DNA of 64,000 bases from Paracoccus bogoriensis (GTDB lineage: Bacteria > Pseudomonadota > Alphaproteobacteria > Rhodobacterales > Rhodobacteraceae): assembly GCF_019431455.1 (NCBI RefSeq), contig NZ_JAHYSR010000001.1, positions 62,001 through 126,000 of the forward strand. Reading direction: 5' to 3'. Position 1 is the first letter of the stretch. Every line of letters begins with the position of its first letter. Made by a program: the position numbers and the translations under genes. The notes beneath the pieces are model-generated. The model was not told where the DNA came from. It worked only from the letters and a program-made list of their open reading frames with translations, and ran no database searches. This document shows, piece after piece, positions 24,281 through 45,077 of this stretch.

Positions 24281-25962
<1,682 letters not shown>

Positions 25963-43126: not shown

Positions 43127-43269
43127 CCCTCTCCTGCCGCTTTGCCTTGGCTCGAATATCCCAAGATGAATCGCGCCCCGCGGATGGGGGGCAGCGCCTC
43201 CCCTGAAACCCGTCGGTCGCCGCGCCGCCCGGCCCTTTTCGTCGCCGCCCGTTCCTGCTAAGGGCACTC

Positions 43270-43306
43270 TCCCGGTCGCAGCCTACCCGGGTTACAAAAA
43301 CAAGGG
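43270..43306 (+). promoter_or_regulatory. PreQ1 class-I riboswitch upstream of queC
   Basis: Stem P1 is CCCGG (43271-43275) with CCGGG (43287-43291). The loop begins UCGCAG (43276-43281) and the A-rich tail is ACAAAAACAAGG (43294-43305). The layout and these segments closely match the preQ1-I aptamer known from Thermoanaerobacter tengcongensis. The tail's AAGGGT is also the ribosome binding site, 6 nt before the queC ATG, so ligand binding should hide it and stop translation of queC when preQ1 is plentiful. Confidence 0.82.
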
Positions 43307-43312
43307 TCACAT

Positions 43313-44017
43313 ATGAAAACTGCTCTCGTCTGCTCGGGCGGGCTGGACTCTGTCTCGCTTGCCCATGTCCTTGCCGCGCAGGGGCGGCTTTCGCGCATTG
43401 TCAGCTTCGATTACGCTCAGCGCCATCGCAAGGAACTGAACCATGCCCGCGCCTGCGCCGAGAGGCTTGCTGTGCCTTTTCATCTTGTCGATCTCTCCGG
43501 CCTTGGCGCGGCGCTGACCGGGTCGGCGCTGACCGACGATGTCGCGGTGCCAGACGGCCATTACGCCGAGGAAACCATGCGCGTCACCCTTGTGCCGAAC
43601 CGTAATGCGATCATGCTGACCATTGCCTTCGGCATCGCGGCCGCGAATGGCGATCAGGCGGTCGCGGCGGCAGTCCATGGCGGCGATCACTTCATCTATC
43701 CGGATTGCCGTCCGGGCTTCACCGAGGCCTTCGCCGCCATGCAGAAGGCTGCGCTGGACGGCTACGCCGAAATTGCCCTGCACGTTCCCTTTGTCCGCGC
43801 CACCAAGGCCGACATAGTCGCAGCGGGCGCGCAAGCCGGCACGCCCTTTGCGCAGACCTGGTCCTGCTACAAGGGCGGGGCGCGCCATTGCGGGCGCTGC
43901 GGCACCTGCGTCGAGCGGCGCGAGGCCTTCGATCTGGCGGGCATCCCCGATCCGACCGAGTATGACGATCCCGATTTCTGGCGCGCGGCGGTCGCGTCGC
44001 GGCAGGGGGCGGCGTGA
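43313..44017 (+). CDS. queC: 7-cyano-7-deazaguanine synthase
   Basis: A 234-residue QueC that makes preQ0 from 7-carboxy-7-deazaguanine with ATP and ammonia. The PP-loop SGGLDS is at 8-13, and the zinc site is [16 protein letters not shown] near residue 185-200. It opens queC-queD-queE; queD starts one base before the queC stop ends (TGATG). Translation is probably controlled by the riboswitch just upstream. Confidence 0.97.
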
Positions 44018-44370
44018 TGTTCCGGATCAGCAAGGAATTCCACTTCAGCGCCTCGCACCGGCTGGACCATCTGTCGCCCGATCACCAATGCGCCCGCCTG
44101 CACGGCCACAACTACATCGTTGTCGTCGAACTGGCCGCGCCCGATCTGAACCCCGACGGCTTCGTGCGCGATTATCACGAGCTGAAGCCGCTGAAGGACT
44201 ATATCGACGGCCATTTCGACCACCGGCATCTGAACGACCTGCTGGCGGTCCCCTCGACGGCCGAGAACCTGGCCCGGCACTTCTTCGACTGGTGCCGCGC
44301 CCGCTGGCCCGAGACCAGCGCCGTCAAGGTCAGCGAGACGCCCAGGACCTGGGCCGAGTATCGGCCATGA
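44017..44370 (+). CDS. queD: 6-carboxy-5,6,7,8-tetrahydropterin synthase
   Basis: A 117-residue QueD acting on dihydroneopterin triphosphate, the first dedicated step of the deazapurine pathway. Zinc ligands His14, His29 and His31 ([17 protein letters not shown]) and catalytic Cys25 are in place; the C-terminal [10 protein letters not shown] matches the family. The ATG shares a base with the queC stop codon, and queE overlaps its own stop by 4 nt. Confidence 0.96.
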
Positions 44371-45077
44371 GCGCCCTGCGAATCGCCGAGATCTTCGGCC
44401 CGACCATCCAGGGTGAGGGCGTCCTGATCGGCGAACCCACGATCTTTGTCCGCGCGGGGGGCTGTGATTACCGCTGTTCCTGGTGCGATTCGATCCATGC
44501 GGTGGACAGCGCCTATCGCGACCAATGGGCGGCCATGTCGCCCGAGGCCGTCTGGGCCGAGGTTACGCGCCTGTCGGGCGGGCGGCCTCTGACGGTCTCG
44601 ATTTCGGGGGGCAATCCGGCGATTCAGGATTTCCGGCCGTTGATCGCGCTTGGCCGGGACGCAGGCTACCGGTTTGCGCTGGAAACACAGGGTTCCATCG
44701 CGCGGGACTGGTTCGGGGCGCTGGACGTGCTGGTCCTCAGCCCCAAGCCCCCTTCCAGCGGCGAGACGCCCGACCGTGCGGCCCTGGCGGCCTGTATCGC
44801 GGCGGGGCAGGGGGCGGGGCAGGTGGTGCTGAAGATCGTGGTGTTCGACCGGCACGATTACGATTGGGCGCGGGCGCTGGCCGAGGATTGGCCGGACCTG
44901 CCGCTTTACCTGCAACCGGGCAATCCTGATGTGCACCCCGAAAGCCCGGTTGCGGCGCAGGATGTGGCCGACCGGCTGCGCTGGCTGGTCGAGAGGGTGA
45001 CCGAGGACCGATGGTTCCGGCCCCGTGTGCTGCCGCAGCTTCACGTGCTGCTCTGGGGCAACCTGCGCGGCGTCTGA
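44367..45077 (+). CDS. queE: 7-carboxy-7-deazaguanine synthase
   Basis: A 236-residue radical-SAM enzyme that contracts the pterin ring in preQ0 synthesis. The cluster motif is CDYRCSWC (Cys33, 37, 40), after the family signature [32 protein letters not shown] replaces the common TGGEP-like segment but fits alphaproteobacterial QueE. The gene overlaps queD by 4 nt. queF is not in the cluster. Confidence 0.95.

Follow-up and report, generated by a model that had tools for sequence, protein, structure and literature searches.

Class-I preQ1 riboswitches have been described in Thermoanaerobacter tengcongensis (Tte; type II), Bacillus subtilis (Bsu; type II) and Escherichia coli (Eco; type III), where type II is defined by the dinucleotide AC before the 3' strand of helix P1 (PMC11625349). 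The Tte riboswitch (CUGGGUCGCAGUAACCCCAGUUAACAAAACAAGGG; PMC10639078) has a transporter gene as its target and controls translation, and its tail end ACAAGGG doubles as the Shine-Dalgarno sequence (PMC10639078, PMC11625349); in its structure, preQ1 binding buries two Shine-Dalgarno bases (PMC11625349). The Bsu riboswitch of queCDEF has a fully canonical P2 and acts through a transcription terminator. In Eco, where the target is yhhQ, the Shine-Dalgarno AAGG is buried in P2, and the type III aptamer is marked by a UU on top of the 5' strand of P1, together with a short loop rich in pyrimidines and a longer linker. The wild-type Tte and Eco aptamers are a 33-mer and a 36-mer, respectively (PMC10622847). 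Direct use of the tail as the ribosome-binding site is unusually frequent among preQ1 riboswitches (PMC2258182), and type II sequences are reported from Pseudomonadota in the passage of PMC11625349 that goes back to a 2014 survey.

The window analysed here, 64,000 nucleotides of Paracoccus bogoriensis DNA, carries a class-I, type-II preQ1 aptamer of 35 nt (43271-43305) whose 3' end, read directly, is the Shine-Dalgarno sequence of queC. We consider it highly likely from the sequence comparisons that it is part of a riboswitch acting on queC translation; the element is very probably a translational OFF switch, with preQ1 as the predicted ligand. It is preceded by a gene that looks like a CRP/FNR-type regulator and followed by these three genes:

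43313..44017, + strand: queC, 7-cyano-7-deazaguanine (preQ0) synthase (TIGR00364, 168 bits against a cut-off of 150)
44017..44370, + strand: queD, 6-carboxytetrahydropterin synthase (TIGR03367, 89.5 against a cut-off of 89.25); its start overlaps the queC stop
44367..45077, + strand: queE, 7-carboxy-7-deazaguanine synthase (TIGR03365, 348 against a cut-off of 206); its start overlaps the queD stop

The start codons of the operon thus overlap as the original prediction had described, by TGATG at 44015-44019 (queC/queD) and by ATGA at 44367-44370 (queD/queE). The same prediction had named QueE as the enzyme that makes preQ0; this step belongs to QueC. The host also has QueF, confirmed by TIGR03139, tgt and a yhhQ-family gene. 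The parts of the aptamer and of the queC ribosome-binding site are as follows:

43271..43275, + strand: 5' strand of P1, CCCGG (direct reading; the outer pair covaries among relatives)
43276..43281, + strand: UCGCAG, the U of L1 followed by the 5' side of P2 (direct reading; the same letters in Tte)
43282..43285, + strand: L2, CCUA (direct reading; CCUA or CCCA in almost all relatives)
43286, + strand: C, the predicted preQ1 specificity base (the A before it is the type II signature; invariant in 38 distinct sequences)
43287..43291, + strand: 3' strand of P1, CCGGG (direct reading and covariation)
43292..43300, + strand: L3, the A-rich loop UUACAAAAA (direct reading; its length tracks that of P1 among relatives)
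43301..43305, + strand: 3' side of P2, CAAGG (the same as in Tte; invariant in the 38-sequence alignment)
43302..43306, + strand: queC Shine-Dalgarno AAGGG, overlapping P2, 6 nt 5' of the ATG at 43313

Direct reading of 43271-43306 agrees with the stem CCCGG/CCGGG, the loop UCGCAG, the A-rich tail and the AAGGG six nucleotides ahead of the queC ATG that had been claimed, while the claimed start at 43270 is one base too early, that base being an unpaired U outside P1. Class I aptamers have a P1 of about 4-6 bp with a conserved G-C closing pair, a U in L1, a C 5' of the P1 3' strand, an A-rich L3 and linkage to genes for queuosine synthesis or uptake. The corresponding elements here are CCCGG/CCGGG, U43276 and C43286 (neither varies in the alignment), UUACAAAAA with an invariant AAAAC, and the positions at queC, queD, queF and a queF-yhhQ operon. 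The assignment to type II follows from A43285 and C43286 before the P1 3' strand, where relatives also have AC rather than UC. By analogy with the Tte structure, the P2 5' pairing positions C9 and G11 are placed at 43279 and 43281, and L3 would contact P1.

Compared with the known systems, the queC aptamer most resembles that of Tte in its parts. The two share a 5-bp P1, the AC before the P1 3' strand and, in accord with the likeness to Thermoanaerobacter noted originally, an identical loop UCGCAG and an identical end ACAAGGG that serves as a Shine-Dalgarno sequence (PMC10639078); translational control, known for Tte, is predicted here. They differ in P1 sequence, in L2, which is UAA in Tte and one base longer in the queC aptamer, and in the target, which is queCDE here. 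The Bsu riboswitch is of the same class and type and controls genes of the same pathway, but the queC aptamer overlaps the ribosome-binding site directly. Eco is proteobacterial too and shares an AAGG Shine-Dalgarno within P2, whose burial is predicted here, but P1 here is followed by U and C, and the loop UCGCAGCCUAC has neither a flanking UU nor the short pyrimidine-rich form of type III. What is distinctive in the sequences compared here is the L2 CCYA, the near-invariant core and naturally occurring short versions, about 30 nt long, in which P1 has 4 bp.

A default Rfam scan of the window gave no PreQ1 report at the queC start. A permissive cmscan of 43150-43400 matched RF00522 with 24.8 bits and an E-value of 0.0035, and the whole 45-position model aligned to 43266-43309 with no truncation. 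The gathering cut-off of RF00522 is 39 bits, which is a curated threshold for database listing and not a property of the RNA, and standard annotation therefore misses the queC aptamer. The Rfam check that had been proposed for this element thus gave a match, the best in the genome, at a score below the gathering value. When the 3 Mb host genome was searched with RF00522, the queC aptamer ranked first (E-value of 0.0096), followed by matches of 15.4 bits, one of the two being a real second copy at queF; the exact core also occurs twice in this genome, before queC and before queF. In 40 related loci scanned with Rfam, no PreQ1 match reached the gathering score, and the cut-off was reached in none of 298 Rhodobacteraceae genomes. 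Apart from those at queC, the weak RF00522 matches in the other Rhodobacteraceae genomes (about 26 bits or less) have no core inside and were dismissed as chance. The RF00522 consensus has UC before the P1 3' strand, the type I signature, where the queC aptamer has AC. Elsewhere in the window, 25528-25817 (+ strand) matches the 5' ureB sRNA (RF02514) with 55.3 bits against a cut-off of 40.

Among related loci of named genomes, CCGGUCGCAGCC[U/C]ACCCGG...AAAACAAGG lies directly before queC in 79 of 80; in these 79, an A-rich stretch and CAAGG come after the core, and AAGG precedes the start codon by 7-11 nt. Paracoccus genomes are the closest among the named relatives. The outer P1 pair varies among the 79 loci (A-U 44, C-G 15, U-A 11, G-C 3, G-U 3, U-G 2 and one mismatch), and the second pair is mostly C-G, with G-C, A-U and G-U also occurring. 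In 38 distinct sequences, the covariation score of the outer pair was matched by none of 500 shuffles, and a one-column shift of the partner lowered the paired cells from 100% to 50-54%. Conservation of P1 pairing in related genomes, the absence of which had been named as evidence against the riboswitch, is therefore present, with compensated changes in both the outer and the second pair. The P2 pairs C9-G and G11-C can form in all 38 sequences, and the invariance of their columns leaves P2 itself without support from covariation.

The H-type pseudoknot makes a further prediction, because L3 must span P1 and a shorter stem should accompany a shorter L3. Of 61 distinct cores, 41 have a long L3 (8 nt or more, counting from the outer 3' base) and 20 a short one; the fifth (outer) P1 pair is possible in 40 of the former and in 4 of the latter (Fisher p 4e-10, a value that overstates independence because the sequences, though distinct, are related). 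The same association is found within Rhodobacteraceae alone (17/17 long, 0/6 short) and within Rhizobiaceae alone (9/9 and 3/14), and the correlation indirectly backs the pseudoknot topology. The RF00522 match that is the best in the genome and the conservation of the element support the prediction of a class I preQ1 aptamer, which would fold as an H-type pseudoknot.

These patterns also bear on whether the conserved element is a DNA operator, in which the inverted repeat CCCGG-N11-CCGGG would bind a repressor of the queuosine pathway and the A-rich stretch would simply be a good ribosome-binding site. Its near-invariant core, palindromic ends and adjoining predicted promoter suit an operator, but the predicted -10 is upstream of the repeat, which at queC is always directly adjacent to the Shine-Dalgarno sequence, the loop and tail of the element are conserved as much as its arms and equal those of Tte, and an operator predicts neither the G-U tolerance at the outer position nor the tracking of stem and tail lengths, both of which are observed. 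We regard an operator as extremely unlikely.

Pseudoknot-free folding was dropped as structural proof of the aptamer, because its minimum for the host sequence is a different, unconserved fold in which the Shine-Dalgarno sequence (GGGU) pairs with the ACCC of L2/P1 (-9.2 kcal/mol, compared with -7.3 kcal/mol for P1 alone). This nearest-neighbour minimum is what an ON switch would need, with the ligand-free fold hiding the Shine-Dalgarno sequence and the ligand freeing it. However, the folding model ignores the pseudoknot, the Shine-Dalgarno partners in relatives are scattered over six regions or absent, and an end product that activates its own biosynthesis is poor logic; there is hardly any likelihood left for an ON switch. 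A conserved anti-Shine-Dalgarno in L2 (CCU with AGG) was likewise rejected: the U or C of L2 paralleled AAGGGATC in the first six cases, but the rule is broken by locus L138 and by the queF copy.

With respect to the expression platform, the tail had been proposed to serve directly as the Shine-Dalgarno sequence of queC, and AAGG 7-11 nt before the start in 79 of 79 loci bears this out; the arrangement itself is already known and frequent among preQ1 riboswitches (PMC2258182). The same spacing leaves no space for a terminator before queC, which argues against transcription attenuation as in B. subtilis in place of Shine-Dalgarno hiding. Attenuation is used by some class-I type-II aptamers (PMC11625349), and several queF and queD copies in relatives lie tens to more than 100 nt from the start codon, but for queC we rate it as very improbable. 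An aptamer that abuts both the Shine-Dalgarno sequence and the start codon, as at queC, suits translational repression as the platform. A scan with the consensus CTTGAC-N17-CTATAT placed a putative promoter immediately upstream of the aptamer:

43235..43240, + strand: putative -35, CTTTTC (consensus scan; weak here, supported by position in 81 loci)
43258..43263, + strand: putative -10, CTAAGG, 7 nt upstream of P1

In 63% of 81 loci, the best predicted -10 precedes P1 by 5-11 nt, compared with 11% of shuffled controls, and this position across the loci indicates that the transcript probably begins at the aptamer. With such a start, the leader would probably consist of the aptamer and the ribosome-binding site only.

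We propose that transcription starts at or just before P1 and yields this minimal leader. When preQ1 is scarce, AAGGG would be accessible and queC translated, with translation of queD and queE coupled to it through the overlapping start codons. When preQ1 is abundant, it would pair with C43286, and the tail CAAGG would dock onto the loop UCGCAG as P2, so that the first Shine-Dalgarno bases are buried and less preQ0 is synthesized. The queF copy in the host would let the same signal govern the final step towards preQ1. Whether the main signal for the same aptamer might be preQ0, the product of QueC and of the operon, deserves consideration, given that Tte prefers preQ1 over preQ0 only 17-fold (PMC10622847). 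Both Tte and Eco nevertheless prefer preQ1, and the aptamer is also found on queF, the consumer of preQ0, where repression by the substrate would be poor logic; preQ0 as the main signal is accordingly improbable, and preQ1 is the predicted ligand.

The distribution of the element was followed in 298 Rhodobacteraceae genomes, almost all of different genera. Only 30 of them have queC, and the exact core lies upstream of it in 23 of these 30. The queC of genome G281 has the compensated variant GCGG/CCGC. The remaining exact cores in the set are both on queF, in the host and in G047, the sole genome with an exact core but no queC; the gene after the G047 queF reads by eye as yhhQ, and an NCBIfam scan of the fragment assigned no family. 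The host queF copy, CCGGUCGCAGCCCACCCGGACAAAACAGGAG, lies directly at the queF start (contig C10, 25872-25903; loci L114 and L158) and has a 4-bp P1 and a 6-nt L3, shorter than in the queC copy. Rhodobacteraceae QueC homologues without an upstream aptamer are few (L163/L074 in G169, L162 in G054 and L164 in G261). In G273 (L166), a sequence that by eye looks like the tail end of an IS3-type transposase gene stands in place of the 5' half of the aptamer before queC, and CCGG-tail-AAGG remains; the locus reads as a natural loss of the switch.

Beyond Rhodobacteraceae, the element was found at an E-value of 0.01 before queC, queF or queD in 47 of 219 genomes of the family of G768, which is taken to be Rhizobiaceae because the queC of its members resembles that of Sinorhizobium and Rhizobium. 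At some queF (L132, L279, L280, L283, L286 and L304) and queD (L266, L300, L307, L310 and L311) copies, the aptamer lies tens to more than 100 nt from the gene, a distance that makes a different expression platform likely. In G1096 (L273), a short, degenerate stretch resembling queC separates the aptamer from queD, as would be expected if queC had decayed and the switch had persisted. Aptamer-bearing queCDE operons are patchy and often plasmid-borne (L038, L104 and L260-L262), and the QueC of Fulvimarina is 82% identical to that of the window, nearer than many Rhodobacteraceae QueC, which together suggest horizontal transfer of the operon with its switch. A plasmid collection yielded 140 matching records for the aptamer and 137 for QueC, and the organism counts of the two agree closely. 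A contig labelled as the actinobacterium Nocardioides marinus (L058) has a Rhodobacteraceae-type queC with the aptamer and is probably mislabelled. Phage-borne copies were considered and dismissed: of 83 viral-contig matches to a 15-mer, only two (L218 and L234) have the tail, and in L218 queC-queD-queE adjoin ribonucleotide reductase genes that appear cellular by eye. Matches of our own model outside Alphaproteobacteria (L255 and L257) are without the core and were taken as chance, and one-mismatch matches such as CCGGTCGCCGCCCACCCGG have neither the tail nor a que gene.

Among the Rhizobiaceae, pSymB of Sinorhizobium meliloti 1021 carries CUCCGGUCGCAGCCUACCCGGUCAAAACAAGGACACCUGUC-AUG at queC (exsB), a short form (about 30 nt; P1 of 4 bp, L3 of 6 nt). 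The S. meliloti queCDE cluster, formerly exsBCD, is required for effective nitrogen-fixing nodules; symbiosis is impaired in mutants of queC, queF or tgt, and external preQ1 rescues the queC and queF mutants in a cell assay (PMC3568095). A riboswitch is not mentioned in that study, and our literature search, which did not extend to the 2014 survey of preQ1 classes, found no description of the element in Rhodobacteraceae or S. meliloti; some alphaproteobacterial copies may already be listed in that survey. The element is conserved and very probably belongs to a known class, here represented in a clade that standard annotation overlooks. We think it rather probable that these sequences form a large, unlisted alphaproteobacterial branch of preQ1-I with the near-invariant core CCGGUCGCAGCCYACCCGG, whose forms of about 30 nt (4-bp P1, 6-nt L3) are among the smallest natural aptamers, and which controls queuosine genes needed for nodule symbiosis. 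The wild-type Tte 33-mer and Eco 36-mer are both longer than the host queF and S. meliloti queC forms, and the variation of P1 and L3 lengths in nature provides ready material for testing the minimum size of a ligand-binding RNA. With annotation at the Rfam threshold, these bacteria seem to lack preQ1 riboswitches, yet almost all queC genes of this type that were examined start with one. In S. meliloti, a feedback switch at queCDE, if present, would explain how these symbiosis genes are controlled.
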